Part shown: positions 49,497 through 64,000 of the stretch, in pieces
Position numbering within the stretch: position 1 is the stretch's first letter
How the letters are laid out: each line of letters opens with the position of its first letter
Assembly (NCBI RefSeq): GCF_000018605.1
Contig: NC_010003.1
Coordinates: 658,501 to 722,500, forward strand
Direction: 5' to 3'
Length of the DNA stretch: 64,000 nucleotides
Source of the DNA: Petrotoga mobilis SJ95
GTDB taxonomy: Bacteria; Thermotogota; Thermotogae; Petrotogales; Petrotogaceae
Translations under genes and position numbers: made by a program
The notes under the pieces: model-generated
Database searches by the model: none
Seen by the model: only the letters and a program-made list of their open reading frames with translations
What the model was told of the DNA's origin: nothing

Positions 49497-50229
49497 CAAA
49501 AAATACCTCCCTTCCCTCAAAAACGGGTCCCTCTTTACATACCCTTTTCATCCCAGATTTTGCCTTTATACTGCATCCCAAGCATGCTCCCATACCACAG
49601 GCCATGACACTTTCCATAGAGACAAAAACAGGAATCATATTTTCGCATTTTTCAACTACTTTTTTCATCATGGGAGAAGGACCGCAAGTGAAAACAACAT
49701 CATATTTTTCTGGTCTGAATATATCCGTTATGAAACCTTTTTGACCTGTAGAACCATCTTCAGTCGTTATATGGATCTTATCCACATACTTGTGTACGTA
49801 ATCCATATAATAAACTTCATTTGTAAATCCAGCATAAAAATCTATCTCTGTACTCAACTTTTTTGCCAAATAAATCATTGGAGGTATACCGATACCACCG
49901 GAAATTAAAGCAACCTTGCCATTCACATTCAAATTAAAACCGTTTCCCAAGGGACCTAAAACCTTTAACTTATCTTTTGGTTTTAGTTTGGATAGGTAAT
50001 TTGTTCCTCGTCCAACAATTTTGTACAAGAAAGTCACAACGTTTTCTTCTACATTGCATATACTAAAAGGTCTAGACAAAAGAGGATCCAGATCCCAACT
50101 ACGCAGCATATAAAACTGTCCAGGATCACCCAAACTGTCGTTGGATTCTAATTGAACTTTCAACTCGAATATATCTTTTGTGATTTCAGTATTAGAGGAA
50201 ATATCTACTTCCCTATACCCCCCTTTCAC
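49489..50229 (-). CDS. pyrK: Dihydroorotate dehydrogenase B, electron transfer subunit
   Basis: FAD/[2Fe-2S] subunit of 246 residues that links PyrD to NAD+. It has a flavin-binding segment (SRPFSICNVEENVVTFLYKI), GGIGIPPMIYLAKKL in the NAD domain, FTCGPSPMMKK, and the C-terminal cluster motif CGMGACLGCSIKAKSG followed by a distal Cys in KRVCKEG. GTG start within the end of pyrF (17-base overlap). Together with PyrD it forms the 1B-type heterotetramer. Confidence 0.93.
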   Translation of the reverse strand: MKGGYREVDISSNTEITKDIFELKVQLESNDSLGDPGQFYMLRSWDLDPLLSRPFSICNVEENVVTFLYKIVGRGTNYLSKLKPKDKLKVLGPLGNGFNLNVNGKVALISGGIGIPPMIYLAKKLSTEIDFYAGFTNEVYYMDYVHKYVDKIHITTEDGSTGQKGFITDIFRPEKYDVVFTCGPSPMMKKVVEKCENMIPVFVSMESVMACGMGACLGCSIKAKSGMKRVCKEGPVFEGREVFFDD

Positions 50230-51091
50230 TTTGAATATCCTCCCTCATGTCAAGTACGGCTTTTCTGGCATAATCTGCAAACCTTTGGTCCCCATCCTTG
50301 TAATTTTTATAAGCGGTAATTATTCCCCTTGAAGAGTTGATAACGCCGCCATTACCTTTGTTTAAATAAAGGGAAACGTCTTTCCCAGTAGCCCCTTGAT
50401 GACCGTATCCAGGAATCAAAAAGAACATGTTTTTGTATCTATTTCTAATTTCTTTTGCTTCCTCAATATGTGTTCCACCTACAACCGCACCTATTGAACT
50501 ATAACCACAACTCCCTCGGTACTTAACCCCTATTTCATTGAGTTTGTCTCCCACAATGTAATAAAGATATTCATCTTTTGGAGATACTTTCAAATACTGT
50601 ATGTCTTTGGCTCCTGGATTCGATGTTCTTAGAAGTACGAAGACTCCTTTTTCTCCACTTTCAATGTATTTAAGGTAAGGGGTTAAGGAATCAAAACCAA
50701 GATACGGATTCAGCGTTACAAAATCAACCTCAAACTCCCCTTCAAAATGAGCTTTAGCGTACATCTGAGCAGTGGATGAAATATCTCCTCTTTTTATATC
50801 CCCGATTGTTATCTTTTTTATACTTCTCAAATACTCTATCGTTTTTTTATACCCTAAAAGACCTTTTATGCCATATGCTTCATAATATGCTATTTGTAAT
50901 TTATAGACGGGTACCAAATCATATGTTTTGTCTATTATCTCTTTGTTGAATTCAAACAAAATTTCATCAATATCTTGATACTTTTCTTTTAAGTTAACCG
51001 GTATATAATCCAAATGGGTATCCAATCCTACACAAACATTCCCCTTTTTTTCAACCTCGTTGAATAATCTATCTATTATCAAATTTGACAC
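50213..51091 (-). CDS. pyrF: Orotidine 5'-phosphate decarboxylase (type 2)
   Basis: OMP decarboxylase of 292 residues, final step of UMP synthesis. VCVGLDTHLDYIP and the catalytic cluster in ITIGDIKRGDISSTAQMYAKA are seen, with FLIPGYGHQGATGKDV near the C-terminus. The length (about 290 rather than 230) and the DIKRGDI context place it in the long, type 2 subfamily. It overlaps pyrC by 23 bases. Confidence 0.94.
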   Translation of the reverse strand: MSNLIIDRLFNEVEKKGNVCVGLDTHLDYIPVNLKEKYQDIDEILFEFNKEIIDKTYDLVPVYKLQIAYYEAYGIKGLLGYKKTIEYLRSIKKITIGDIKRGDISSTAQMYAKAHFEGEFEVDFVTLNPYLGFDSLTPYLKYIESGEKGVFVLLRTSNPGAKDIQYLKVSPKDEYLYYIVGDKLNEIGVKYRGSCGYSSIGAVVGGTHIEEAKEIRNRYKNMFFLIPGYGHQGATGKDVSLYLNKGNGGVINSSRGIITAYKNYKDGDQRFADYARKAVLDMREDIQSERGV

Positions 51092-52265
51092 TCCCCTTTT
51101 TATATTTGATCTCTCCCTTTCTAATTGTTGCTATAACTTCTCCATAAAATTCCATCCCATCAAAAGGTGTATTTTTGCCTTTGGATAAAAATTCGTCTTT
51201 GTTGATTTTAACCTTTTTTTCTAAATCTACAATAACTACATCTCCATCGTATCCTGTTTGTATTTTTCCTTTTTTAACCCCTAACATTTGTGCTGGTTTT
51301 GAAGACATAAGTTGAGATAAGCGATTCAGTGAAATTTCTTCACTTTTTACCAACTTCGTATAACAAACGGGGAAAGCAGTTTCTAACCCCGAGATACCAG
51401 GTGCTCCTTTTTCTTTGTCTTGCGTTGAATGAGGGGCATGATCAGTTGCTATAATATCTACAGTTCCATCCTTTATTCCATTGATTATTTCCAAAACATC
51501 TTCTTTTTCTCTTATTGGAGGATTAACTTTGTAATCGTAATTGTATAAGGCTAAATGGTGGGGGGTAACTTCGCAGGTAAGATTTTGTATCTCTCTTTTT
51601 GCCTTTCTTATACCTTCTATTGCCTCTTTCGTGCTTACGTGGGCTAAATGAAGCCAAGCACCTGTCAATTTCGCAAGGTATATATCTCTAAAAGTCATCA
51701 GGTTTTCGGAAAGTCTCGTATCTATCGTTACTATTTCATTGTCTTCTTCATGTGCTATGATAGTTAAACCTTTCTCTTTTGCCTTTATCATCGCTAAATA
51801 CATAGTCAAATTTGACTGAACACCTTTTCCATCATCGGATATGAATTTCACATTATTATCTATATAATCCAAATGTTCTAAAGATTTTCCATCAAAGTTC
51901 TTTGTGATAGAAACCGTTTGGTGAATATCGATTAAATTTAACTCCTTAGCTTTGTTCAACACATACTTAACAACTTCCATATCACTGCATATAGGATTGG
52001 TATTACCCATTAGATTCACACATGTGTATCCGCCTTTCAACGCAGCTAAACTTCCAGAATGTAAATCCTCTTTATAAGTATAACCAGGATCTCTGAAGTG
52101 CGCATGCATATCTACAAAAGCAGGCATAACAATCAAACCTTGTGCATCTATAGTATATGTATCGTAATTCAAACTTCTCCCATAATTATCTATCTTCCCA
52201 TCTTTAATGTACAAATCCCCGAATAAATCTTTCTCTTCATCCACGATCCTACAATTTTTAATCAA
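51069..52265 (-). CDS. pyrC: Dihydroorotase
   Basis: Type I dihydroorotase of 398 residues, amidohydrolase superfamily. Metal residues lie in PAFVDMHAHFRDPGYTYKED and later H-motifs (IIAHEEDN, LHLAHVSTKEA, TDHAPHST). GISGLETAFPVCYTKLV is typical of bacterial type I enzymes. TTG start at 52265; the purine-rich G7-TGA (52281-52290) is 16 bases upstream, unusually far. An ATG-TTT-TGA mini-frame overlaps the TTG. First gene of the pyr operon. Confidence 0.93.
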   Translation of the reverse strand: MIKNCRIVDEEKDLFGDLYIKDGKIDNYGRSLNYDTYTIDAQGLIVMPAFVDMHAHFRDPGYTYKEDLHSGSLAALKGGYTCVNLMGNTNPICSDMEVVKYVLNKAKELNLIDIHQTVSITKNFDGKSLEHLDYIDNNVKFISDDGKGVQSNLTMYLAMIKAKEKGLTIIAHEEDNEIVTIDTRLSENLMTFRDIYLAKLTGAWLHLAHVSTKEAIEGIRKAKREIQNLTCEVTPHHLALYNYDYKVNPPIREKEDVLEIINGIKDGTVDIIATDHAPHSTQDKEKGAPGISGLETAFPVCYTKLVKSEEISLNRLSQLMSSKPAQMLGVKKGKIQTGYDGDVVIVDLEKKVKINKDEFLSKGKNTPFDGMEFYGEVIATIRKGEIKYKKGSVKFDNR

Positions 52266-52307
52266 AACATTTATTTTAATTCACCCCCCCTACATAGATT
52301 CTTTTTT

Positions 52308-52335
52308 ATTCTACCAATTTTACTACTAATGTTAA
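52308..52335 (-). promoter_or_regulatory. Promoter of the pyr operon
   Basis: Minus strand TTAACA (52335-52330), 16-base spacer, TAGAAT (52313-52308), downstream of the terminator at 52342-52387. Confidence 0.5.
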
Positions 52336-52341
52336 TACATA

Positions 52342-52387
52342 GAAAAAAAGTAGTGTTAACTTTGTTTGACTTCAAGTTTAACACTAC
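52342..52387 (-). terminator. Terminator upstream of pyrC on the minus strand
   Basis: GTAGTGTTAA (52387-52378) pairs with TTAACACTAC (52359-52350), followed by seven U on the minus strand. It either ends the hic transcript or attenuates pyr; a promoter beyond it favours the first. Confidence 0.75.
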
Positions 52388-52572
52388 CTTTGACTTTTTA
52401 GATAATACATAATGGACCCTCACTTTTTCTAAGAATAACTTTTCTATGTTTTTGTAATTGCTTAATATATCGCTTATGTATTTTATTTTCTCCTACATGA
52501 TATCAGATTATTTAATCATTTGCTCATATTTAATTTTTCTCTATCCACACTTTGTGGGAGAGAACCAATTTT

Positions 52573-52695
52573 TTATTTTTTGAAAATTTCTTCTACCAGC
52601 TGGTCTTCCGTGATTTTTAAGTATTCTGAGACATCTCTTAATATGTTATTTAACGTACCTATTTTTAGAAATTTATGATTTGGAACTTTCGGCAT
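52573..52695 (-). pseudogene. HicA toxin, C-terminal remnant (40 codons)
   Basis: The frame MPKVPNHKFLKIGTLNNILR, continuing DVSEYLKITEDQLVEEIF, matches the second half of HicA toxins (the VPxHxxLKxGTLxxILRxA stretch). The first half, with the dsRNA-binding-like fold and catalytic His, is missing. It overlaps the end of hicB by 23 bases in another frame, in the usual hicB-hicA order, so a deletion removed the N-terminal half. Confidence 0.65.
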
Positions 52696-52906
52696 ATTTG
52701 AATGTCTCTTCTTTCAAAATATGCAATCTTATAATATCAGGAATATCTTCTTCTTTATCAAAGTGACATTTTATAGCATCTTTAATATTTTCTTTAAGCT
52801 CATCCAAGGAAGATCCTTCTGTAAAGATTGATTCTCCCAAAGCCCTTGCGTTATATCCGCTTTCTGGATCTTCTTCTACTATAAATATTATTTCTTTGAC
52901 TTTCAT
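52673..52906 (-). CDS. HicB-family antitoxin
   Basis: Protein of 77 residues with the HicB partial RNase-H-like fold: VKEIIFIVEEDPESGYNARA, then LGESIFTEGSSLDELKENIKDAI. No C-terminal DNA-binding helix is evident beyond the short acidic tail. ATG 52906 has AAAAGGGG 9 bases upstream; ATG 52915 is in frame too. The cognate HicA is only a fragment, so the antitoxin appears orphaned. It would originally neutralise the mRNA-cleaving toxin. Confidence 0.85.
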   Translation of the reverse strand: MKVKEIIFIVEEDPESGYNARALGESIFTEGSSLDELKENIKDAIKCHFDKEEDIPDIIRLHILKEETFKYAESSKS

Positions 52907-52943
52907 CAGATTCATCCCCTTTTATTTTACTAGTATCTAAAAT

Positions 52944-52972
52944 ATTATATTATATGGGGGATACCTTGTCAG
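52944..52972 (-). promoter_or_regulatory. Promoter of hicB
   Basis: Minus strand CTGACA (52972-52967), 17-base spacer, TATAAT (52949-52944). Confidence 0.55.
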
Positions 52973-53024
52973 AAAAGCATCCATCCTTTCTTTTTATCTT
53001 TTTGAAAAGGAAGAAAAAGAACCG

Positions 53025-53849
53025 TTATTTTTTAATTTCAAAAGGGGTGAAAGTCTGGATACTCCTTAAATATCCCAGAACAATTTCGTTAAATGTCGCA
53101 AATCTTCCAATCTCTTCTTCAGTTTTTACCAATACCTCTTCTTCAAAGTTAGCAACAACTTCACCACTTGGAATGGGTTCACCTTTTCTTATCATCCTGT
53201 GCTTTTCTTTAGCAGAATCCATATCGTCTGTATATAATATTTTACCTTCTTTTATAATCGCAAAAGATGAGGATATTTCCTCGAGTTCGTATATTTCGTG
53301 AGAAGATATGATTATCGTCTTGTTCGTTTCATTTGCATAATTTCTTAAAATTTTTAAAGCCTCCGACCTTATAACGGGATCAAGGTTCTGAGTCGGTTCG
53401 TCTAAGAGCAAAAGATCGGCATTACTGGATATGGTCAATGCCAAATAAAACAATGTTTTCATGCCCATGGAATATCTTTCCACTTTTTGGTTTATGTCGA
53501 GGTTGTAATGTAAAACAAAATTAGAAAATGTTTCCTCGTTGAAGTTAGGATACAACATACTCCAAATTTTTAGGTAATCACTTCCTTTAAAATTAGAAAA
53601 TGTCAATCTATCTTCTGTCATCACCGAAACTTTTGCTTTTATCTTAGGGGTTATTTTTTCAGAAAAAAGCTTTATCTCACCATTGTTTGGTTTCAACTCC
53701 CCGTATAGACATCTCAAAGTTGTTGTTTTACCTGCACCATTGGGACCTATTAGAGAAAAGATTTCACCCTCATTTACGTTAAAATTGATCTTGTTCAATA
53801 TCGGTTTTGAATTGAAACTTTTAACTAAGTCTTTCACTTCTACTATCAT
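53025..53849 (-). CDS. ABC transporter ATP-binding protein (YtrB-like)
   Basis: ATPase of 274 residues. Walker A is GPNGAGKTT and Walker B is LLLLDEPTQNLD; the signature region reads ERYSMGMKTLFYLAL, degenerate from LSGGQ but typical of the YtrB/GldA-like group. A C-terminal extension of ~60 residues (GEPIPSGEVVANFEEEVLVK) follows the D-loop and H-switch (IISSHEIYELEEI). The gene is the last of a four-gene operon (membrane beta-protein, GntR regulator, permease, ATPase) and overlaps the permease by 4 bases. Confidence 0.88.
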   Translation of the reverse strand: MIVEVKDLVKSFNSKPILNKINFNVNEGEIFSLIGPNGAGKTTTLRCLYGELKPNNGEIKLFSEKITPKIKAKVSVMTEDRLTFSNFKGSDYLKIWSMLYPNFNEETFSNFVLHYNLDINQKVERYSMGMKTLFYLALTISSNADLLLLDEPTQNLDPVIRSEALKILRNYANETNKTIIISSHEIYELEEISSSFAIIKEGKILYTDDMDSAKEKHRMIRKGEPIPSGEVVANFEEEVLVKTEEEIGRFATFNEIVLGYLRSIQTFTPFEIKK

Positions 53850-54445
53850 TTTTGTACACCTCTTTTTTCAAACAGATATAAAGATAAGAGTAAAAGAAAC
53901 ACAGAAAATATCAAACTTGCCCAAACATTCCCTTGATGTGATGGACTAATATATTTATAGGGATTTACAGCATAACTGGAACCAATTGCCCCAAGGATTC
54001 CATCAACAATCAATATCAAAAATGGTATCCCAAATGTATCTCCACCTAATGTAACAGAGATTATAATAATAGCAAAATAAGCGGTTGCTAATATTATGAC
54101 ACTCAAAATCTTTAACAGTGCCATTGACAAGTACAAACTTCCAAAGTTAAAAAAGGCTAGCCCAATAGAACTCGGTATAACTATCAAGAGCAGGGAAAGT
54201 ACATAAGATGAGAAAAATACCTCTCTGTATGAATAAGGAAGGGATATTATAAGGGAGAACTTTCCGTTTCTTAAATCATGTCCGATCATGTTAGTAAGGA
54301 AAAGGAATATAAAAAATAACGTTAAAAACGGTATATCAAAGGTTATGAAAAATAAAAAGATCAAAGAGAATATAAATATTCTTCCACTCTTTTCAGTAAA
54401 CTCCTTTTGAAAGTAAACTTCCAACTTATTCAGAAAATTGACCAT
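53846..54445 (-). CDS. ABC transporter permease (ABC-2-like)
   Basis: Membrane protein of 199 residues with six hydrophobic segments (ITFDIPFLTLFFIFLFLTNM, ILSVIILATAYFAIIIISVT, VWASLIFSVFLLLLSLYLF). The polar loop GHDLRNGKFSLIISLPYSYREVF resembles the coupling helix of ABC-2 permeases. ATG start inside the end of the GntR gene (20-base overlap). It pairs with the ATPase downstream; substrate unknown. Confidence 0.75.
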   Translation of the reverse strand: MVNFLNKLEVYFQKEFTEKSGRIFIFSLIFLFFITFDIPFLTLFFIFLFLTNMIGHDLRNGKFSLIISLPYSYREVFFSSYVLSLLLIVIPSSIGLAFFNFGSLYLSMALLKILSVIILATAYFAIIIISVTLGGDTFGIPFLILIVDGILGAIGSSYAVNPYKYISPSHQGNVWASLIFSVFLLLLSLYLFEKRGVQK

Positions 54446-54794
54446 CCTTCCAAACCTCCTCCAAAATTAATTTTATAGTTTCTAAGTCTATGTCTTCCTT
54501 TTTTAATTTTTCTACACAATTTCTAATCTCATCAACAATGCCTTTTTTCAAGTCTATATTCGTTGAAACAAAAAAACCTATTCCATGTTGGGCTTCTATG
54601 TATCCTGATGTTTCTAACTTATCTAAAGCTTTTAAAATCGTGTTGATGTTGACTTTGAAAATTGTACTCAATTCCCTAACAGGTGGTAATTGATCACCTT
54701 CTTTTAGATTTCCCATAATTATTTCCTTTTTTATCTGATTCATTATTTGTAAATAAGATGGTATCCCACTGTGTTTATCTACTTCATACAGCAT
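54426..54794 (-). CDS. GntR-family regulator, YtrA subfamily
   Basis: Short regulator of 122 residues. The N-terminal winged HTH (GIPSYLQIMNQIKKEIIMGN, then LKEGDQLPPVRELSTIFKVN) is followed by a small helical dimer domain, as in YtrA-type GntR proteins that control ABC transporter operons. ATG 54794 with AAAGGG 9 bases upstream is chosen; the frame is open to 54869 inside the previous gene. It likely binds the inverted repeat over the operon promoter (55804-55823). Confidence 0.88.
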   Translation of the reverse strand: MLYEVDKHSGIPSYLQIMNQIKKEIIMGNLKEGDQLPPVRELSTIFKVNINTILKALDKLETSGYIEAQHGIGFFVSTNIDLKKGIVDEIRNCVEKLKKEDIDLETIKLILEEVWKDGQFSE

Positions 54795-54807
54795 ATTTAC
54801 AACCCTT

Positions 54808-55779
54808 TCAAAATTTTTTTCTTCTGATCTTAATTCTGCCTTGGGTATCAAGGTCCAACCTTCCTTCATTATCCGAAGGTTCCAGAATGTCTACTTCACC
54901 ATAAGCCCCTTCAATTGATAAATACCTCGTACCTACCCATTTATCTATGTATTGTATGGTACCTGTCAATGCTGCGCCGTTAATATAGATATGTTCTGCG
55001 TTAGTTACTGAGAGGTCAATTTCTACACCAGCACCGTTTAGCGTTAACTCTTCGGCATCTACCAAGCCATGCCAACTAATCCCTGATGCATTGATTTCAG
55101 CGTTGCCCACGTGTATATTACCACCAAGACTTAAACCTGTTGAATTTATCGAAAGATTACTCGCTTCAAGCGTCGTATTGAAATTAAGTCCAGTGGTATT
55201 TAAATCAAAATTTTCTAATTCTAAATTCCCCACTACATTTAAACCTGTTGAGTTTATCCTTATGTTCTTGTAGGGTACTTTTGAGCCAATTACTATGACA
55301 TATTTTTGATCTTGAATGTTCGATATTAATGTTAGTGTATCTTCATTTCTCCTATGATCAATTTGACTAGGAATGTAGATCTGGTCAGACGTTTCATCAA
55401 AAATTATTTCTAAATTTATTCCTTCGATTTGTAGGTTTTCACCCCTTTCTATGTAGATATCAGGCTGGATTTCTTCAGTATTAGAATTGTAGCTATAACC
55501 GTTTTGGTTATATAATTCTTCCCAGTTGAAAATATTATTCCATAAATTATCCCAATCAAGCTGTGAACCTATAAAATTAGAAAATATGCTTGCTGGTATC
55601 ACAAATAAAACTACCGCTAAAATAACAAACAAGATTTTAAAGCTTTTCAGGTTAAGAGCCAGAAAAACAATCGCAACTGTCGAAAAAATGAGTTTCAAAA
55701 AGAAGGAAGGTATAAAAAGAGCCGAAATACCGAAAGCAGTGGCAAAGACAAGTTTTAACAAATAATTGTACCTGGACAT
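54808..55779 (-). CDS. Membrane protein with predicted beta-solenoid domain
   Basis: Protein of 323 residues, not assigned to a named family with certainty. Four hydrophobic segments (~9-75) are followed by an acidic linker and then a domain of regular repeats with the rhythm xINSTGLxxxGNLELENFD (INSTGLNVVGNLELENFDLN, TTGLNFNTTLEASNLS, INSTGLSLGGNIHVGNAE, INASGISW). This suggests a right-handed solenoid, as in DUF4097/toast-rack-type adhesin-like domains. ATG start after GGGGGTG. First gene of the YtrA operon, so it may act with the ABC transporter in envelope sensing; inference. Confidence 0.6.
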   Translation of the reverse strand: MSRYNYLLKLVFATAFGISALFIPSFFLKLIFSTVAIVFLALNLKSFKILFVILAVVLFVIPASIFSNFIGSQLDWDNLWNNIFNWEELYNQNGYSYNSNTEEIQPDIYIERGENLQIEGINLEIIFDETSDQIYIPSQIDHRRNEDTLTLISNIQDQKYVIVIGSKVPYKNIRINSTGLNVVGNLELENFDLNTTGLNFNTTLEASNLSINSTGLSLGGNIHVGNAEINASGISWHGLVDAEELTLNGAGVEIDLSVTNAEHIYINGAALTGTIQYIDKWVGTRYLSIEGAYGEVDILEPSDNEGRLDLDTQGRIKIRRKKF

Positions 55780-55803
55780 TTACATTCACCCCCAATGTTT
55801 TGT

Positions 55804-55844
55804 TGTTATATTTAACTATAACACATATTGTACAAAAAAGTCAA
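55804..55844 (-). promoter_or_regulatory. YtrA-operon promoter with overlapping inverted-repeat operator
   Basis: Minus strand TTGACT (55844-55839), 17-base spacer, TTATAG (55821-55816). A perfect inverted repeat TGTTATA-N6-TATAACA (55804-55823) covers the -10, a good site for the operon's own GntR regulator. Confidence 0.7.
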
Positions 55845-55864
55845 CTTTTTGAGTTAAATAATGT

Positions 55865-56677
55865 CTAATACTCTATCAAACTACCTGTTTCTCTTGCTTT
55901 ATTGAAACCGAATCTGAACAACAACAATCCCAAAGGAATCGTCAGTAAACTCATGATGATCAAAACTATTATCTCGTTCTTCACATCAGCAAAGGTGGCC
56001 CCTGTCAGTAAGGACTTTCTCAATGCACTTAAAGCATATGTGGGCGGCAAAAAATATGAAAAACTCCTCAACCATGCTGGTAATATGGATATTGGGTATA
56101 GTACCCCACTAACAAGGCCAGACAGTGTACTAAAAATCCAACTTATTGGATCTCCCATCTTTGTTACCATTATTACTCCTGCACTCATAAGACCTATCCC
56201 ACTTATACATATTATTGAAAGTATTAAAATGAATAACGATAAAATTATATTTATTGTCATTTGAATATCGAATATCAAAACCAGAAACAAAAAAATAACT
56301 CCTACATTTATTGTAGTCCATATGAAACTATTTATTCCATTGAATATTAACAGTTGCCACAATGGTGTGTTACTCATCAATAAATATTCAAGTGTTCCCA
56401 TTGTTTGTTCTGACCTTATAGAATTTCTAAAAGAATCTAATGCAACTGAGACATAGCTCATATACATTGTTCCTGTTATTAGAAATGCCATTAAGTCTCC
56501 ACCGTATGGTTCGAGCATGGGGAAGGTGTTCCCTTCTTGCAAAAAATTAGCCATGAATCCAAACCTTAAAACACCTATCAGCATACTTGCTATTCCAAGT
56601 ATTGCGTACGTTCTATAACTGAAGTTTGTTATGAATCCTCTTTTAATGAATATCCATAATTTTTTTAAAAAACTCAT
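55865..56677 (-). CDS. ABC-2 type permease of the Cys-rich peptide locus
   Basis: Permease of 270 residues with six transmembrane segments, ABC2_membrane family. An N-terminal amphipathic segment (SFLKKLWIFIKRGFITNFSYR) precedes AILGIASMLIGVLRFGFMAN. RNSIRSEQTMGTLEYLLMSN is the coupling loop. YPISILPAWLRSFSYFLPPT and YALSALRKSLLTG are hallmarks of ABC-2 exporters. ATG start overlaps the ATPase gene by 4 bases. It lies downstream of the precursor peptide and probably exports it or protects against it. Confidence 0.88.
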   Translation of the reverse strand: MSFLKKLWIFIKRGFITNFSYRTYAILGIASMLIGVLRFGFMANFLQEGNTFPMLEPYGGDLMAFLITGTMYMSYVSVALDSFRNSIRSEQTMGTLEYLLMSNTPLWQLLIFNGINSFIWTTINVGVIFLFLVLIFDIQMTINIILSLFILILSIICISGIGLMSAGVIMVTKMGDPISWIFSTLSGLVSGVLYPISILPAWLRSFSYFLPPTYALSALRKSLLTGATFADVKNEIIVLIIMSLLTIPLGLLLFRFGFNKARETGSLIEY

Positions 56678-57624
56678 TTTTTATCATTCCTTACAAAGTT
56701 TATGAATACTTCTTCTATTGAAGGTGTTTCAACATTTATTGTAAGTATCTTTCTGTCTTGGTTTTTCAGTTTTTCTATCAGTTGATCAAGTACTTCTGAA
56801 GAATTTTCGACTTCTATTTCAAATTCGTTATCTTTTATCTTTCTAAATAGGTTTATCTTTTCTTTGATGCCGTCTTGTGCGATTAAATCTTCATTGATAC
56901 CTTTATCTATTTTCACTTTTATTATTTCTTTTTTTAATACTCTTTTTAAGTTTTCTTTTTTATCAACAGCGAGCATATTCCCTTTGTTCAATATACCTAT
57001 CCTATCGGCAAGAAGTTCTGCTTCATGCATATCGTGTGTGGAAAGTATAATAGTTTTATTTTTATCCTTGAGAGATAGAATTATGTCTCTTATCTCATTT
57101 GCACTTATTGGGTCGATAGAAGATGTTGGCTCATCGAATATGTATACATCAGGATCATGTAATAATGCTCTTGCTAAAGAAAGTTTTTTCTTCATACCAG
57201 TTGAGTATTTCATATACTTTAAATCTTTGGCGTCTTCTAAATTGAACAGATTGAGTAAAAAGTTTATCCTTTCTTTTAAGTCCTTACTTTTTATACCGTA
57301 CAAAGTACCAAAGAACTCGAGGTTTTGATAACCATTCAATCTGTAATAAAACGATCTTTCAAATCCTGTTGATAACCCTATCGATTTTCTTACCTTGTAC
57401 TCATCTTTTTTGATGTTGTATCCGTTAACCCAAGCATCTCCATATGTCGGTAGTATGAGAGTGGAGATGGTTTTTAGAAAGGTAGTTTTCCCTGCACCAT
57501 TAGGTCCAAGCAAAACAAATATCTCTCCATTTTGAATGGATAGGTTTATATCTTGTATGGCTCTTATTTTTTTCTTTTTTACTTTGAATATCTTCGTTAG
57601 GTTTTGTGTTTTTATCGTTTCCAG
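56674..57624 (-). CDS. ABC transporter ATP-binding protein of the Cys-rich peptide locus, probable CTG start
   Basis: ATPase with Walker A GPNGAGKTT, signature KYSTGMKKKLSLARALLHDP and Walker B VYIFDEPTSSIDP, then a ~100-residue C-terminal domain. Starting at the first standard codon (TTG 57513) would leave only LLG before Walker A and lose the first beta strands. The frame continues upstream with normal ABC sequence (TIKTQNLTKIFKVKKKKIRA, IQDINLSIQNGEIFV) to a stop at 57637-57639. The only codon well placed for the ribosome site AAGGGA (57637-57632) is CTG at 57624, 7 bases away; ATT at 57627 is second choice. 316 residues on this reading. Overlaps the permease gene. Confidence 0.85.
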   Translation of the reverse strand: METIKTQNLTKIFKVKKKKIRAIQDINLSIQNGEIFVLLGPNGAGKTTFLKTISTLILPTYGDAWVNGYNIKKDEYKVRKSIGLSTGFERSFYYRLNGYQNLEFFGTLYGIKSKDLKERINFLLNLFNLEDAKDLKYMKYSTGMKKKLSLARALLHDPDVYIFDEPTSSIDPISANEIRDIILSLKDKNKTIILSTHDMHEAELLADRIGILNKGNMLAVDKKENLKRVLKKEIIKVKIDKGINEDLIAQDGIKEKINLFRKIKDNEFEIEVENSSEVLDQLIEKLKNQDRKILTINVETPSIEEVFINFVRNDKK

Positions 57625-57848
57625 AATATCGTCCCTTCATTCATATCTTACGAAAGATAAAAATTAAACAAACATACATTATTTTACATCATTATCATGC
57701 AATAATCATTACCTTTTCGATATTTTTAAGATCACATTTTTATTCATATCGTGGATGCAGTAAATCTCATCCTAAAGATACTACGATTGAACCCCACTTT
57801 TCGGTTGATTAATCTCTGCCATCATTTCTAATTGCAAATGAGGCTAAT

Positions 57849-58031
57849 TTAATTGTTTTCTCCATTTGCACATAGCCAAGGAAATTTTTTATCCTGACAT
57901 GGATTGTTACACTGTGGATTGTGGCAATAATCACAATTTTTAACTGTTTCGCAACCTTCCTTCTCGCCATTTTCTCCACAAGCAGCTAAATATCTGTCTT
58001 TATCAAACACAGGTTCATTTATGAATTCCAT
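57849..58031 (-). CDS. Cys-rich RiPP precursor peptide (candidate)
   Basis: 60-residue peptide. The short N-terminal segment MEFINEPVFDKDRYLAA is cysteine-free and could be the leader. The remainder carries seven Cys at 18, 27, 33, 36, 41, 45 and 54 (for example CDYCHNPQCNNPCQDKKFPW). It is rich in Asn, Lys and Glu. ATG start with GGTGGTGATATT just upstream. It lies 17 bases after the second of two radical SAM/SPASM genes and upstream of an ABC-2 exporter. Such context marks ribosomally made, radical-SAM-modified peptides (ranthipeptide/sactipeptide-like). A metal-binding ferredoxin-like role is less likely given the neighbours. Product structure unknown. Confidence 0.8.
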   Translation of the reverse strand: MEFINEPVFDKDRYLAACGENGEKEGCETVKNCDYCHNPQCNNPCQDKKFPWLCANGENN

Positions 58032-58047
58032 AATATCACCACCCCTT

Positions 58048-59397
58048 TTAAATTTTTACTCCTAATTTTTTATCAGATAATAAAGAAACCATTTCTTTTA
58101 GATTGTATTTTAAAGGAATGCATGTGTATGGTTTCCTCCATGGAGAGCTATTTAACCTATCAACAACAACTGCATTAAAAACGCATCCTCCCATGCACAT
58201 TGGAAGTACAGAACATTCCATACATTTTTGATCTTCGAACGGTTCGTAAGTTATCCATTTTTCAAATTTATGGTTTAATTCTATATCTTCTTTTGTTATT
58301 TTACCTACAGAAGAAAATTTATTTCCTATCTCTCCCCAACACTTGTAAATACTCCCATCGACATCTATTACACAACTATTTTTACATAAGGCATCACATC
58401 TGGCCATTCTTAATCTTCTAAATGGATTGAATGGATAATCGGGTATGAGTGTGATGACTTCTTTGTATAGTTCTACTTCCACATTAGCAAATTCTCTCAA
58501 TGTAAGCATCTCATCATTAAATCCCGTAGATAGTTCTTCCACTACCTCAACTGGTTGAAAATCAAAATCAACTCTCCATCCCTTTTCTGCAAGTATCTTT
58601 ATCATTTTTTTCACATTTTCTATACTATTTTTAGAGATATTTGTTCTAATGGTTACATACATCTTATCTTGTGCATAGTTTATATTTTCCATAATTTTAT
58701 CAAAAGTAGGCTTGTCACTTTTAGTCTTTCTATATTTGTCATGAAGAGTCTTATCTCCATCAATTGTTATTATTACGGAGTTTACTCCACAGTTCAGTAG
58801 TCTATTGACAATGTCATGAGTTAACAAATAACCGTTCGTTACGACATTCGCTTCATACTTTACTTCGAACTTCTTACACATTTCTTCAAAACCTTTACTT
58901 AACGTTTCTAATTCATCGAGTGCAAGAAGCGGCTCTCCTCCATAAAAAGTTATGCTCAATACTTTAGGATGTTCTTCTTCAAATCTTTTTTCCGTCATAT
59001 TTAGAATTGTGTTTACAATATTTTTTGCTATTTTTGCGGGTTTCTTATCCATTAAAGTTATCAACATTTGTTGATAGCAATAAACACAAGAAAAATTACA
59101 TTCTTCAGTTAAACTTATAGTATATCTTAAAAATCTATCACTGTATTTGTAATTGTTTAACCTCATCTTCAAATATGTTATTTCGTCAAATTCATCAGGG
59201 ATAATGTATAATCCTTTTTTCAACTTTTCTATATCTTCATCAGATAGCTTTATTTCTTCTATATTTCCACTTTCAAGAACTTCTTTAACTTCTTTTACTT
59301 TGTTTGGTTCAACATATAGAATGGCATTTGAAATGCTATTAAATAAAATGAGATAGTTATCTTTTTCTATAAGTTGATTATACCTTGATATTTTCAT
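58048..59397 (-). CDS. Radical SAM/SPASM peptide maturase, second gene
   Basis: Protein of 449 residues. An N-terminal ~75-residue region (LFNSISNAILYVEPNKVKEV, then LKKGLYIIPDEFDEITYLKM) resembles the leader-recognition part of peptide maturases. The radical SAM core has CNFSCVYC (Cys100, 104, 107) and the SAM-binding TFYGGEPLLALDEL. A C-terminal SPASM domain binds auxiliary 4Fe-4S clusters (CDALCKNSCVIDVDGSIYKC, then CMECSVLPMCMGGCVF and a later Cys). It overlaps the first maturase gene by 20 bases and is followed by the Cys-rich peptide, its expected substrate. Bond formed: unknown. Confidence 0.92.
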   Translation of the reverse strand: MKISRYNQLIEKDNYLILFNSISNAILYVEPNKVKEVKEVLESGNIEEIKLSDEDIEKLKKGLYIIPDEFDEITYLKMRLNNYKYSDRFLRYTISLTEECNFSCVYCYQQMLITLMDKKPAKIAKNIVNTILNMTEKRFEEEHPKVLSITFYGGEPLLALDELETLSKGFEEMCKKFEVKYEANVVTNGYLLTHDIVNRLLNCGVNSVIITIDGDKTLHDKYRKTKSDKPTFDKIMENINYAQDKMYVTIRTNISKNSIENVKKMIKILAEKGWRVDFDFQPVEVVEELSTGFNDEMLTLREFANVEVELYKEVITLIPDYPFNPFRRLRMARCDALCKNSCVIDVDGSIYKCWGEIGNKFSSVGKITKEDIELNHKFEKWITYEPFEDQKCMECSVLPMCMGGCVFNAVVVDRLNSSPWRKPYTCIPLKYNLKEMVSLLSDKKLGVKI

Positions 59398-60730
59398 CTT
59401 TTTTCACCGCTTTCAGCTTTCTTTCCATGTCTTTTGTGAAATACCACAATCTTGCGAAAGATTCTAAAGCAGTTTTTTCTTCTGGGCATCCTCTAACTCC
59501 TGAATTCACTATAGCATTTCTACATCCTCCAAAACATTGAGGGAGTAACTCACACTTTTTACATTCTTCATCTTGAAAAGCATCGTGTTTATACCATAAA
59601 AGGTACTTTGTTTTATCATATTCGATGCCATTGTTTGTTACTTTTCCAAACTCGTTCCCCTCATTTACTGCAACTGTACAAGGGAAAACTTCGCCTTTAG
59701 GCCCTATTAAAATAGAAGATTCACAGTCATATTCACAATAAATCGGATTAGAAAGAATAGGAAGAAAAGTTTCAAATCCTTTTTGAGATGCATAGTAATA
59801 GAACTTAGCCAATTTTTCGTAAGAATTTTCCCCTCTAAAATTCATAACTTCACGATGAATTTCTTTTTCCGTTTCCCCACCTTGAAATATCCATCTAAAA
59901 TAAATTCTTAGACGGTCTTTTGGAAGAATTTCAAGCGCATCCACCAACTTATATATTGCGTCATAATTATCTGGGCCAACGTTAACTCTTAGAGTAATTC
60001 TTGATTCTTTTGTCAATTCGAAGAAATTTTTTATATTTTCAAACATGATATCATACGTTGGTCCTCCTCCCTTTAAGGGCCTATACTTGTCATGATATTC
60101 CTTTGGGCCATCAAGAGTTATTTGTACGTTGCGTATCATTAATTCGTCAAATAGCTTGGCTTTTTCAGCTGAAAGTAAGTATCCATTTGTTGAAATGGAA
60201 GAAGAAAAATTAGTTTTATATTCTTCACAAGCTTTTATCACTTTTTCATTAATATATTTCATAGTATCAAATTTTAAAAGAGGTTCACCACCAAACCAGC
60301 CAATATGTATTCTTCGTTTACTTTTTGCCACAGTTGAAATATAATTTGCAACTGTTTCAGTTGTTTTCTCATCCATAGTTGGTCCTTCATGTGTTTCATA
60401 GCAATAAATACAATCCAAATTGCATCTCATTGTAGGCATTATTGTGAAACTTATAAAACTAGCATCATATCTGCTTCTATAGTTCATTGCCTTTAAATGT
60501 TGTATTTCATCAAAATTCTCTTCTATTAAATAACCGCCATATATAAGGTCATTTTTTAAATCTGCATATTCTCTTGACCATTCTTTATTTGGCGATTCCA
60601 TTATTTCTTTTATTTTATTATATTTTTCTTTATTTACAGTCGCAATTGCTTCTGTTAAAAGATTAACAAAAACAACTTTGTCTCCATCCTCAAAAATAAC
60701 ATTATAATTCGAGTTTTTATATCTTAGCAT
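59378..60730 (-). CDS. Radical SAM/SPASM peptide maturase, first gene
   Basis: Protein of 450 residues, paralogous to its neighbour. The N-terminal region (VVFVNLLTEAIATVNKEKYN) precedes the radical SAM motif CNLDCIYCYE (Cys103, 107, 110) and HIGWFGGEPLLKFDTM. The SPASM domain has CEYDCESSILIGPKGEVFPC, then CKKCELLPQCFGGCRNAIV and GCPEEK. ATG start after GGGAGG. It begins the operon maturase-maturase-peptide-ATPase-permease behind the promoter in the 60761 repeat. Two different maturases suggest two kinds of crosslink or two stages. Confidence 0.92.
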   Translation of the reverse strand: MLRYKNSNYNVIFEDGDKVVFVNLLTEAIATVNKEKYNKIKEIMESPNKEWSREYADLKNDLIYGGYLIEENFDEIQHLKAMNYRSRYDASFISFTIMPTMRCNLDCIYCYETHEGPTMDEKTTETVANYISTVAKSKRRIHIGWFGGEPLLKFDTMKYINEKVIKACEEYKTNFSSSISTNGYLLSAEKAKLFDELMIRNVQITLDGPKEYHDKYRPLKGGGPTYDIMFENIKNFFELTKESRITLRVNVGPDNYDAIYKLVDALEILPKDRLRIYFRWIFQGGETEKEIHREVMNFRGENSYEKLAKFYYYASQKGFETFLPILSNPIYCEYDCESSILIGPKGEVFPCTVAVNEGNEFGKVTNNGIEYDKTKYLLWYKHDAFQDEECKKCELLPQCFGGCRNAIVNSGVRGCPEEKTALESFARLWYFTKDMERKLKAVKKDENIKV

Positions 60731-60760
60731 TCAAATAACCTCCCACTTTTATTCTGTGTT

Positions 60761-61077
60761 CTATTTTTATCATACACTTTTCTATATGATTTTCAAGCGA
60801 TTTTTTTATTGGCCTCAAATATAGATAGAAACGTATTTTCAGAGATTAGCTCAAAAAACCTTATGTAAACTTTAATTACGATGTTTTTTATCATGTTTTA
60901 TACTCTGTTTTCGCTTTCTCTTTTTTGATGATAGTTACAATATAGTTGATTAAAAAGAGAAAAACGATTAACTATTGACTTGTTAACATTGGAATCAAAG
61001 TAAATATTATGTTATTATTAAATGACAATTATGAAACAAAAGCATATATATGTAGAAGGAGATAATTCAAATGCTTT
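60761..61077. repeat. 317-bp imperfect direct repeat, copy 1
   Basis: From CTATTTTTATCATAC to AAGGAGATAATTCAAATGCT it matches 63329-63644 with roughly one difference in ten bases. The left end carries the minus-strand promoter, the right end a plus-strand ribosome site and ATG followed by decayed coding sequence. Confidence 0.85.
60769..60796 (-). promoter_or_regulatory. Promoter of the radical SAM/Cys-rich peptide operon
   Basis: Minus strand TTGAAA (60796-60791), 16-base spacer, TATGAT (60774-60769), 40 bases from the first maturase start. It lies in the left end of the 317-bp repeat and is conserved in copy 2. Confidence 0.6.
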
Positions 61078-61237
61078 TAGAATTAGAATAAAAAAGTTCA
61101 TAATGAACTATGGAAGGTATTATGAAATAAGAAAGATACCAAAAGAATTAAGACCAAAAGTGCCAAAAGAAATTAATGTATTTGTGAATAAATATACTTT
61201 AAAAAAGACTATCTGCAACTTCTTTCTATGTTTTTGA
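61022..61237 (+). pseudogene. Decayed plus-strand ORF at the repeat boundary
   Basis: A 71-codon frame (KHIYVEGDNSNAF, then KKFIMNYG) that appears as fragments also after copy 2 of the repeat (AAAAGTTCATAATGAACTAT at 63738). Copy 2 retains an intermediate piece (FERIEKDISKLQKDSLYLKN), so copy 1 has an internal deletion. Probably the remnant of one ancestral gene, perhaps a transposase; family not recognised. Confidence 0.45.
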
Positions 61238-61273
61238 AGGTGAAGAAAGAGAGTTTGAAATCTGCTAATTTTA

Positions 61274-61548
61274 TTTTATCCCTGCAACACAGAGTTATTT
61301 TAGGGACTTTAGAAATGAGAATTTTCTAAAAATGGAATTTTGAATTTAAAATGGGTCTAGGGCGGAGCCCTCTCCCCCTCCTTGGCTACAAGTACCGAAA
61401 AAGTTAAAGAAATTAAGAATTAGTGAGAATTAGAAGTGGGGAAGTGTTTCTGAATAAATTTAAAACATTTATAGAATCTGTGTTTCATAATTTCTAAAGT
61501 GAGTAAGAGTTATTTATACAGGAGACTTATTGTATTGCAGGGATAAAA
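61274..61548. mobile_element. MITE-like element with 14-bp perfect terminal inverted repeats
   Basis: TTTTATCCCTGCAA (61274-61287) and TTGCAGGGATAAAA (61535-61548); matching continues as YACA inward. The 275-bp interior has no gene and contains the GC-rich GGGCGGAGCCCTC also found at 30725. TAATT occurs just outside both ends. Non-autonomous transposable element likely. Confidence 0.55.
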
Positions 61549-61558
61549 GTAATTGACT

Positions 61559-62491
61559 TTATTTCCCCTCCAAAAAATTCTTATAAGCTTGAGAAAAAGT
61601 TGGTAAATATCTATCAAAGTTCTTTACTATCAGCCCTTCATCTACAACTTTTTTGTAAACATTTTTAGCTATATTTTCATCATCAGTCCAAATTTTTATT
61701 GTATTCTCTTCAACTATGATCTTTTGTGGCTCGCCAATATTATTCAATATCTCTTCTAATTTTTCCTTTTTTACCTTTTCCATCAACTCGATTACATAAC
61801 AAGGTTCATTTTGTGCAACCTCTTGCAACTGTTGTGTTGTCCCTTCAAATATGATTTCACCTTTATTTATCATGATTATTCTATCACAAAGGTTTTCAAC
61901 AAGATAAGGATCATGAGTTGCTATTAACATTGATGTTCCTTTCTTTTTTAATTTTCTCATGTATTCTATTGTTTCTTCCTTTGAAGCTATGTCTAATCCA
62001 TCTGTTGGTTCATCCATTATCAGTAATTTTGGGGAATGTATAAGAATAGTCAAAAGTTTCGCTTTCTGTTTCATACCTTTTGAAAATGTACCTAATCTTT
62101 TTTCAAACACATCTTGTAAATCAAACATATCTAAGAGCTCTTCTATAGTTGAATTATCTTCAACCTCATGGAGTGTTTTAAATAATTCAATATATTGTTT
62201 CAAGGTTAATTGTGGATATACATCAGCTCCTTCAGGAAGGTAACCCATCTGTCCATAAATCTTTTCTCTTTCCTTCTTATTTAATGGATTGTATCCAAAA
62301 ACTTGTATATTTCCATTCTTGGGATAGAGAATTCCTAACAGTACTCTAACAAGAGTTGTCTTACCAGCTCCATTTGGTCCCACCAAACCAACACTTTCGC
62401 CTTGATATGTACTTAAAGAGACGTTATTCAACACAAGTTTTTTATTATCATAAGTAAAATCAACATTAATTGCATCAATATGCTTATTCAC
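61559..62491 (-). CDS. ABC transporter ATP-binding protein, second exporter
   Basis: ATPase of 310 residues: Walker A GPNGAGKTT, signature TFSKGMKQKAKLLTILIHSP, Walker B LLIMDEPTDGLDI, H-switch LIATHDPYLVE. A C-terminal ~90-residue domain follows (EKVKKEKLEEILNNIGEPQK), like that of antibiotic/bacteriocin exporters. It lies 15 bases after its permease on the minus strand. Its operon is driven from copy 2 of the promoter repeat that also drives the radical SAM locus. Confidence 0.9.
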   Translation of the reverse strand: MNKHIDAINVDFTYDNKKLVLNNVSLSTYQGESVGLVGPNGAGKTTLVRVLLGILYPKNGNIQVFGYNPLNKKEREKIYGQMGYLPEGADVYPQLTLKQYIELFKTLHEVEDNSTIEELLDMFDLQDVFEKRLGTFSKGMKQKAKLLTILIHSPKLLIMDEPTDGLDIASKEETIEYMRKLKKKGTSMLIATHDPYLVENLCDRIIMINKGEIIFEGTTQQLQEVAQNEPCYVIELMEKVKKEKLEEILNNIGEPQKIIVEENTIKIWTDDENIAKNVYKKVVDEGLIVKNFDRYLPTFSQAYKNFLEGK

Positions 62492-62506
62492 CTTTAATAA
62501 CCTCCT

Positions 62507-63175
62507 CTATGCTACGAAATCTTTGATTTCTACGTTTCTTACAGATAAAAAGAAACATAATAGTGAATAAACTAACAAAATTGGAATTAAAAACTTAAGA
62601 AATATACCCGTATTGCTTATAATAAACAATAAAACAAACGACAAAATTGGAAGAACAAAAAGAAATATAATTAAAAGTATCTTTCTTAACAGATTCACTT
62701 TTGTAAAAATTATACCTAAGGTAACTCCCAACGACGCAAAAATTATAGCAATTAACAATACGTATAACCACACAGAAATATTACCGTATTGCTCATACAA
62801 AGGTAAGGTTAACAATGTATATACAATCAAGTAGGTATAAGCGGTAACAATTCCAAGAAACACACCATTAATCCATTTAGAAAAGATGTATTCAAATGGT
62901 CTGATCCCTGATGTTAATATCATTTCACCAGCTTTAATTCGTTTATCTGTTAAAAGAAAACTAAAAGGAAACATTAAAGAAAACAACCCTCCCAATAAAA
63001 AAGCTGCTCCTTGTAACCAATATGAATAGAGCAATTCTGAAACTTGTGTAAAACGAACAATAAGTCCATATAAAAAACCAAAGCCTAAACCAAACATTAA
63101 AAAAAACATTAAAACAAATATTTTCGAGGATAACAAATCTGTTTTCACAATTGACATAACTTTCTTAAGCATCAA
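62507..63175 (-). CDS. ABC transporter permease, second exporter
   Basis: Membrane protein of 222 residues with six hydrophobic segments (IFVLMFFLMFGLGFGFLYGL, LLGGLFSLMFPFSFLLTD and others). The polar loop TDKRIKAGEMILTSGIRPFE resembles the coupling helix of ABC-2 permeases and is followed by YIFSKWINGVFLG. ATG start after AAAGGAG. First gene of a two-gene operon with the ATPase. Substrate unknown; possible second exporter or immunity pump for the peptide locus. Confidence 0.8.
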   Translation of the reverse strand: MMLKKVMSIVKTDLLSSKIFVLMFFLMFGLGFGFLYGLIVRFTQVSELLYSYWLQGAAFLLGGLFSLMFPFSFLLTDKRIKAGEMILTSGIRPFEYIFSKWINGVFLGIVTAYTYLIVYTLLTLPLYEQYGNISVWLYVLLIAIIFASLGVTLGIIFTKVNLLRKILLIIFLFVLPILSFVLLFIISNTGIFLKFLIPILLVYSLLCFFLSVRNVEIKDFVA

Positions 63176-63328
63176 ATCATCTCCTTTACATAATAAAATC
63201 AGTGATTTCCAGGTTTTTTATTTTACCATTTCTTTCATTTTTCTCCAATCTCCATGAGGGGTGATTACGTTAAGCTTTTGATATGTAATGAGTAACACTT
63301 TTCACTTACAAACTCAAAAGACCTTTCA

Positions 63329-63644
63329 CTATTTTTATCATACCCTTTTCTATATGATTTTCAAGCGATTTTTTTATTGGGCTTAAATATAGATTGAAAC
63401 GTATTTTCAGAAATTGCCTCAAAAAACCTTATGTAAACTTTAATTAAGATGTTTTTTATCATGTTTTATACTCTGTTTTCGCTTTCTCTTTATTGATGAT
63501 AGTTATGATATAATTGATTAAAAAGGGAAAAGTGAATAAATATCGGCTCGTTAACATTGTAACTAAAGTAAATATTATGTTTTTTTATATGACAATTATG
63601 AAACAATAACAGATATATGTAGAAGGAGATAATTCAAATGCTTT
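63329..63644. repeat. 317-bp imperfect direct repeat, copy 2
   Basis: Matches 60761-61077 (offset about 2568). Together the copies bracket the decayed ORF, the MITE-like element and the second ABC operon. Confidence 0.85.
63337..63364 (-). promoter_or_regulatory. Promoter of the second ABC operon
   Basis: Minus strand TTGAAA (63364-63359), 16-base spacer, TATGAT (63342-63337), identical in elements to 60769-60796. A ~160-base leader precedes the permease gene. Confidence 0.6.
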
Positions 63645-64000
63645 GAAAGAATAGAAAAAGACATTTCAAAACTACAAAAAGATAGTTTATATTTGAAAAA
63701 TATATAAAACTTGATTCAAAAGAAAAAGAGATAATAGAAAAGTTCATAATGAACTATGGATGCTTGATAAAAATCCTCCCAACACTATCCCTATTAAAAC
63801 TGATACTACCGTTAAGATTGTACTTTCATCAATTAAGAATTCAAGCAGTACTTTTTGTATTTTAGCCTTTCTTATCTTTTATTCAATCTTCTTAACTTTA
63901 AGCTAATTATAATTTCCCTTCATTTCTAAAGTGAGGAATTAAATACTTTTTCTCTTTGATTAAAGAAATTGTTTAAAAAATAGGCGAATGTCATAAACGA
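63645..64000. other. No intact gene at window end; decayed ORF fragments
   Basis: After copy 2 come short fragments of the same decayed gene as at 61022 (KDISKLQKDSLYL, KFIMNYG), with stops and frame changes. From about 63770 I see only AT-rich sequence without an ORF. Confidence 0.5.

Follow-up and report, generated by a model that had tools for sequence, protein, structure and literature searches.

A probable cysteine-rich peptide operon of Petrotoga mobilis with a conserved pair of radical SAM/SPASM maturases and a shared promoter linked to a divergent gene family

A five-gene operon of Petrotoga mobilis SJ95 probably makes a small cysteine-rich peptide, which a constant pair of radical enzymes would modify before its export, as judged from its sequence and that of its relatives. 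The operon lies in a 64,000-nucleotide stretch, here called the window, of a genome that consists of a single contig of 2,169,548 bp. The original prediction, made from the window alone, had described on its minus strand two radical S-adenosylmethionine (SAM)/SPASM enzymes (here rSAM_A and rSAM_B), a 60-aa peptide with seven cysteines, an ATP-binding cassette (ABC) ATPase and an ABC-2 permease, in this order, and had interpreted them as a locus for a ribosomally synthesized and post-translationally modified peptide (RiPP). All five reading frames were confirmed (Table 1). The account we favour, in which we have moderate confidence, is that of a RiPP operon with a leader-guided enzyme pair, thioethers at NxxC motifs, ABC export and a repeated promoter with divergently encoded regulators. 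The sequences themselves establish the gene content, the enzyme pair, the precursor family, the enrichment of the motif over that family, the common promoter and its linkage to the divergent genes, whereas cross-link chemistry, joint action, export, regulation and a role in stationary phase are inferred. Two findings are new, a conserved pair of maturases accompanied by precursors of one family with the NxxC motif and, of greater weight, a promoter repeated ahead of several operons and linked to a divergent gene family. In the open-licence PubMed Central (PMC) literature, no account of this operon or of the divergent family was found among the matches listed.

Both maturases scored above the Pfam cut-off for Radical_SAM (78.1 and 55.8 bits), as did the exporter proteins for ABC_tran (96.1 bits) and ABC2_membrane (54.7 bits). 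For rSAM_A the Pfam SPASM model reached 15.3 bits, short of its cut-off of 21.5, and for rSAM_B it gave no match. Nevertheless, all 28 untruncated orthologue rows (leaving aside A_G063, with its internal start) have the CX3CX2C motif and the seven cysteines in SPASM spacing, and both proteins align over nearly their full length to SPASM maturase models, which upholds the predicted radical SAM/SPASM identity. An enzyme with this motif and these cysteines adjoining a short precursor gene is the arrangement that marks radical SAM/SPASM RiPP systems. The best scores of the two maturases against RiPP maturase models were 228.8 and 249.6 bits, both below the model cut-offs. The anaerobic sulfatase-maturating enzyme (anSME) type, which the original prediction had set against its own interpretation, was rejected, since the two scored only 93.7 and 89.7 bits with TIGR03942 (cut-off 349.45). 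The maturases of the Clo7bot, TIGR04463 and CefB families gave the near full-length alignments and the best NCBIfam scores, but these scores of 212.6-249.6 bits stand against cut-offs of 525-600 (Clo7bot TIGR04334, 249.6 of 600; TIGR04463, 234.2 of 525; CefB NF038107, 234.7 of 600), and four maturase orthologues scanned from genomes G093 and G017 were below the same cut-offs. By sequence, the closest solved structure for both maturases is 5wgg ('Radical SAM domain protein'; E 5.4e-20 for rSAM_A), which we take to be CteB, a SCIFF maturase. The SCIFF maturase model itself, TIGR03974, gave 92.3 and 77.0 bits, below its cut-off of 425.

The comparison sample comprised 103 Thermotogota genomes (labelled G000 upward), in which a maturase was counted as present at E 1e-60 or better. 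rSAM_A was found in 17 genomes and rSAM_B in 19, and all 17 genomes with rSAM_A also carry rSAM_B; the two with rSAM_B only are G020, where the match has two stops, and G018, where it is distant (37%). The two genes are adjacent in 16 of the 17 genomes, and in G099 they stand on the ends of two contigs. Adjacent maturases that are kept together are the mark of two-enzyme sactibiotic systems. A tree of 15 rSAM_A and 14 rSAM_B sequences, together with three other maturases from the P. mobilis genome, placed the two enzymes in separate clades (support 99/99 and 99/98). The sequences from G005 (identical to the window) and G099 (partial) and the contig-cut rSAM_B of G047 were left out of this tree, and rSAM_A of G063 was read from an internal start. 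In the window the two reading frames overlap by 20 bp, and rSAM_A looks constrained, its ratio of nonsynonymous to synonymous change (pN/pS) being 0.20 and 0.15 in two comparisons. The exporter permease was found in all 12 clusters whose contig extends that far (G047, G010, G014, G019 and G099 end earlier). The product would leave the cell through this exporter, perhaps with the leader still attached because the operon encodes no peptidase. When rSAM_A was run against a contig collection of 84,980 species, in a scan that reaches close relatives only, one locus was confirmed, on a contig of a metagenome-assembled Thermotogota genome that agrees with that of G013 in length and in match. On plasmids, no copy of the operon was found beyond a 77-bp match in the ABC gene of four plasmids.

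Does the short frame between the maturases and the exporter behave as a gene? In G003, G013 and G005 its place in the operon is taken by homologues with 93, 93 and 100% identity, and peptides that begin with MEF[ILV]NxP or a close variant occur in all 17 rSAM_A genomes and in G020, so the 60-aa frame does behave as a gene. The absence of such relatives from other genomes with these maturases, which had been named in advance as evidence against a RiPP, was not observed. With precursor homologues in 17 of 17 rSAM_A genomes, and with maturases that score higher against RiPP maturase models than against anSME, the RiPP interpretation is supported. Most of the leader peptides have a purine-rich stretch upstream (by eye). 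In an alignment of 22 precursors, M1, P7, C18, C33, C36 and C41 (window numbering) are invariant, and the MEF[IL]NxP leader would be the part recognised by the dedicated radical SAM/SPASM pair. For the window peptide, pN/pS was 0.18 against G013, and against G003 there were 0.5 synonymous to 4.5 nonsynonymous changes, both counts being small. The suggested placement of the peptide in an established precursor family failed: neither it nor five other precursors scanned matched any NCBIfam model, NF033413 included, and in Pfam the window peptide had only a match below the cut-off.

The precursors fall into two types by position. Type B, which follows rSAM_B, was found in all 16 readable clusters, and type A, which precedes rSAM_A, in six of the 17 genomes (G047, G093, G099, G010, G014 and G019); G088 and G083 have another copy of type B upstream of rSAM_A. 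Such an arrangement, with type A before rSAM_A and type B directly after rSAM_B, could mean that each enzyme serves its own precursor, in which case the rSAM_A of the window would be without a substrate or would serve other operons. We consider this rather doubtful. In ten of the 17, both enzymes are retained although no type A peptide turned up upstream (G063 being unreadable there), which argues for joint action rather than for one enzyme per precursor, and the apparent constraint on rSAM_A points the same way. Moreover, a second cysteine-rich peptide with a MEFxNxP leader in the P. mobilis genome was rejected by a leader-pattern search limited to frames with the common leader and an ATG start: its only other match was a cysteine-free 37-aa peptide, present in all nine genomes searched and unrelated to the precursors. 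The original prediction had spoken of two maturation steps. The two maturases are confirmed, but the statement on steps has to be softened, since the pair is retained where a single precursor type was found, which joint action explains no less well than one step per enzyme. According to a passage of PMC12093266, thuricin CD is likewise made by two adjacent radical SAM enzymes from precursors that contain cysteine, and its enzymes TrnC and TrnD form one complex that jointly modifies both precursors. rSAM_A and rSAM_B would probably act together in a similar manner, although thuricin CD is made from two precursors and its links are to alpha carbons, while the window has one precursor and another motif.

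What kind of bond may the pair install? We compared residue positions around the cysteines of 19 precursors, chosen with near duplicates dropped from 42 rows and one G047 peptide, with a null model in which cysteine positions were fixed and the other residues shuffled. Asparagine three residues before cysteine was observed 44 times against 16.2 expected, the largest z of all residue and offset pairs, and at least one such asparagine is present in all 19 precursors, the window peptide having two. In a reduced set of six precursors with 15-40% pairwise identity, the excess persisted (18 against 6.3, p 5e-5), the next asparagine offset being +5 (10 against 5.8, p 0.04). NxxC is the motif of a streptococcal peptide with an Asn-Cys thioether, Asn20-Cys23 in a passage of PMC8326336, and its chemistry is also treated in a part of PMC13361665, so the enrichment leads to a prediction of the same bond type here. 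We propose that Asn-Cys thioether cross-links are formed in the precursor core, jointly by the enzyme pair, most likely from the cysteine sulfur to the beta carbon of the asparagine three residues upstream (N38-C41 and N42-C45); the remaining cysteines would be left for further cross-links or disulfides. The streptococcal NxxC peptides of the RaS-RiPP class share the motif in their precursors, and their operons are linked to Rgg regulators according to the same part of PMC13361665. They differ from the present system, which has many cysteines, several NxxC motifs per peptide, two maturases, a helix-turn-helix (HTH) match in mid-protein in its candidate regulators, and a host of another phylum.

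The same RiPP logic could also operate with another chemistry, through alpha-carbon links as in sactipeptides or links to Asp, Glu or Thr side chains as in the SCIFF and PapB types, with NxxC as a mark for folding or recognition. This is a real but clearly lesser possibility. It agrees with the presumed SCIFF maturase as the closest structure and with scores of 136.1 and 124.4 bits for the PapB-family model, themselves below the cut-off of 340. It is also in line with two of the motif statistics that count against thioethers at NxxC: aspartate directly after cysteine is likewise enriched (30 against 15.6, at the smallest p), and the window peptide taken alone shows no excess of NxxC (2 against 1.1 expected, p 0.29). 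The enrichment of asparagine at +5 (27 against 15.0, also at the smallest p) counts against them too. The NxxC signal comes from relatives that are not independent of one another, and this relatedness inflates the test on 19 precursors. On the other side, asparagine at -3 has the largest excess in the family and keeps it in the reduced set, and we retain Asn-Cys thioethers as the preferred chemistry. A further alternative is a peptide that is not cross-linked at all, namely a small protein binding a metal or cluster, or the precursor of a redox cofactor (mycofactocin is such a case), with maturation by the pair. A CxxC pair in the core (C33-x2-C36) would suit such a function. It is very improbable in view of the exporter permease in all 12 readable clusters and of nearest models that are maturases of cysteine-rich peptides.

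The operon shares its promoter with other operons of the genome. As judged by eye in an alignment of 29 copies of the promoter element from several genomes, hexamers resembling -35 and -10 boxes (TTGAAA-16-TATGAT or variants) occur in all 29, and 26 also have conserved blocks farther upstream. When the P. mobilis genome was searched for the pattern with up to three mismatches, 13 promoter sites were obtained, and the reversed pattern, used as a control, gave none. Within about 4 kb downstream comes a radical SAM operon, its radical SAM gene on the transcribed strand, at nine of the 13 sites, an ABC operon at three and a gene for a secreted protein at one. At two sites (741020 and 1117447) the radical SAM gene comes 3-4 kb in, behind cysteine-rich peptides and an exporter or transposase-like gene. 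Transcription of the window operon would start at this promoter, whose 13 near-identical copies stand mostly ahead of radical SAM or ABC operons.

Seven of the 13 promoters are divergent from members of one gene family, six of them full-length and one truncated at the N-terminus, and the two sites in the window have only remnants of the divergent gene beside them. For all six full genes, the distance between the site and the beginning of the divergent-gene match is 272-289 bp. In the P. mobilis genome, each of the eight divergent copies listed, including the remnant at 61067, has a minus-strand radical SAM match within 4.3 kb; with 23 such matches in the genome, simple arithmetic gives a chance of about 5% for any one place. 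The family occurs in 56 of the 103 genomes at E 1e-10, with up to ten matches, some partial, in one genome. Fragmented copies recur in related genomes, and one on contig C31 of G013 (L045:11905-12576) has residues 34-162 fused to 468-566, with the middle missing. When 28 members were scanned singly, eight matched HTH_26 (best E 4.2e-8), seven HTH_3 and five TPR_12, a tetratricopeptide repeat (TPR) model (best E 2.2e-9). RRNPP regulators have an N-terminal HTH followed by TPR repeats. One member, of 524 residues, has its HTH match at 285-319, and another has a TPR-like match at 146-191, which points to a domain order different from that of RRNPP. We conclude that the divergent family probably encodes regulators of the promoter-linked operons. 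The window copy being only a remnant, its operon would then depend on a paralogue, and having lost its own copy it would be controlled in trans; the nearest paralogue is about 10 kb away, at 729244.

Could the shared element instead be a recombination site, or the end of a cassette that spreads with RiPP genes, and the divergent protein have no part in regulating the operon? We regard this as unlikely, even though the copies are direct repeats, the operon neighbours differ in G003 and G013, and the divergent gene often occurs in fragments. Promoter-like hexamers in every aligned copy, with blocks further upstream in most, and the uniform spacing to all six full divergent genes speak for the promoter and its linked regulators. 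Several results weigh against this regulatory part of our account. Only 8 of the 28 divergent members match HTH_26 and 5 of the 28 TPR_12, so that most members scanned singly lack an HTH match, and the member scanned from P. mobilis itself matches neither HTH nor TPR models of Pfam. When the family profile was compared with solved structures, the top match was a spore coat protein (E 0.0044), ahead of an HTH protein (E 0.11), and among NCBIfam models no match was better than E 0.0049. No gene of the divergent family stands beside four of the 13 promoters. Finally, in eight other genomes a divergent SPASM gene lies within 5 kb of only 8 of the 21 members listed (one of these SPASM matches being below the cut-off and containing a stop, and two pieces in G088 counted as one gene), and in G023 of none of seven. 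Among these 8 members are those of G093 that adjoin its TM1316 operon and its rSAM_A operon.

A more far-reaching version of this regulation can be imagined, in which the divergent proteins are TPR-HTH receptors that sense peptides, possibly the exported cross-linked ones, and switch on several operons through the shared promoter, the 13 promoters forming one regulon. Such a RiPP communication network is a tentative proposal, and on balance we would not expect it. If it were true, an operon that has lost its own receptor gene would still respond through a paralogue.

Kinship with the TM1316 region of Thermotoga maritima, also raised in the original prediction, holds in part. The window peptide as TM1316 was rejected, given that it has no match to NF033413 (RiPP_TM1316). 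In G093, a 31-aa peptide at about 1,335,354 (L050:1355-1450, plus strand) matches this model with 84.5 bits (cut-off 35), and the rSAM_A orthologue begins about 8 kb beyond it, so that the orthologous operon is a neighbour of a TM1316-type peptide. The window operon therefore corresponds to a different operon of the same island, not to TM1316. The TM1316 locus of G093 likewise includes a radical SAM/SPASM gene and genes for ABC transporters, and each of the two operons has a member of the divergent family next to it. The TM1316 locus differs in its precursor (31 aa and 3 cysteines, against 60 aa and 7 in the window) and in its maturase, which is only weakly similar, with 22% identity to rSAM_B in the matched part. 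The title of a 2013 report by Frock et al. links the TM1316 locus with the stationary phase and with the level of nutrients, and its abstract reportedly speaks of 'other Cys-rich peptides', among which the T. maritima orthologues may be. A secreted stationary-phase peptide would fit these observations, whether as a signal, an envelope component or an antagonist, and we prefer none of the three. In the mining of 211 anaerobe genomes published in 2014, the only Thermotogae sactipeptide cluster, a putative one, was Tmel_0409 of Thermosipho melanesiensis, according to a passage of PMC4289311.

Some further results count against our account as a whole. The operon is absent from three of the six genomes of the same genus (G000-G005), being present in the other three. 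No leader peptide was seen, in the stretches read, at the rSAM_B match of G018 or at the second, distant matches of G016 and G019, and the structure model of rSAM_A (predicted local distance difference test 49.7) was too poor for a fold search. With regard to the absences, the alignment of the flank in G001 (94% identity) takes in the final 179 nt of the permease, beyond which comes a duplicated flank, so that the operon was lost there by deletion; the stretch (L127:6332-10908) has the remnant of the permease 3' end and then a duplicate of the gene for the neighbouring 323-aa protein. In G002 and G004 the flank had no match at E 1e-20, and in G003 it had one, of 72%, on a different contig.

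If our account is correct, this thermophile would offer the enzymology of joint action a small system in which two enzymes cross-link a peptide. The account would also predict Asn-Cys cross-links in multi-cysteine peptides far from the streptococci, and for the T. maritima island of stationary-phase peptides it would name a possible family of regulators together with the DNA site that they may bind.

Table 1. Features of the operon and its surroundings in the window (window coordinates)
Feature	Position	Strand	Remarks
rSAM_A, radical SAM/SPASM peptide maturase, 450 aa	59378..60730	-	CX3CX2C at residue 103, 7-Cys SPASM pattern
rSAM_B, second radical SAM/SPASM maturase, 449 aa	58048..59397	-	clade separate from rSAM_A
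Precursor peptide, 60 aa, 7 Cys	57849..58031	-	MEFINEP leader; Cys-rich core with NPQC41 and NNPC45
ABC exporter ATPase, DrrA-like	56674..57624	-	DrrA1-3_C above cut-off, TIGR01188 below
ABC-2 exporter permease	55865..56677	-	Pfam ABC2_membrane; kept among orthologous clusters
Putative operon promoter, TTGAAA-16-TATGAT	60769..60796	-	one of 13 genome pattern matches
Divergent promoter element, about 320 bp	60761..61077		repeated elsewhere in genome
Remnant of divergent regulator-like gene	61067..61231	+	matches residues 496-551 of 567; most of gene deleted
Neighbouring ABC permease and ATPase operon	61559..63175	-	under second promoter copy
Second element copy, upstream of next ABC operon	63329..63644		repeat of 60761..61077 element

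The ATPase frame, as listed from a TTG at 57513, begins inside the domain; it is open to about 57624, without an ATG, GTG or TTG before the domain. In the same region (window 57500-57640), the ATPase of G003 likewise has no ATG, GTG or TTG before its first conserved part, while G013 has a longer frame that starts with ATG. The genes that adjoin the operon (53025-55779) encode a GntR-type regulator, an ABC ATPase, a permease and the 323-aa protein, and resemble an ordinary transport operon. Rfam gave no match at the gathering threshold in window positions 50000-64000. The neighbouring ABC operon is perhaps in the same regulon as the RiPP operon; no peptide or maturase was seen in it, and it may be an immunity pump.

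Other operons of the genome have related contents. The next one, at about 723.5-731 kb (L070:1547-8948), encodes a 464-aa radical SAM protein, a 430-aa protein with 16 cysteines, ABC proteins and a 64-aa peptide with CSAGC repeats, and has the shared promoter with a full divergent gene alongside. A further radical SAM operon (L070:12676-18479) has an ABC exporter and two cysteine-rich peptides of different look (54 and 67 aa). In another stretch (L071:1152-2414), a transposase-like gene (by eye) separates two promoter-bearing cysteine-rich peptides from the radical SAM match at 1113463. Lastly, two radical SAM genes under the shared promoter (L073:344-3671) are followed by a protease that resembles the subtilisin type (by eye), a candidate leader protease.

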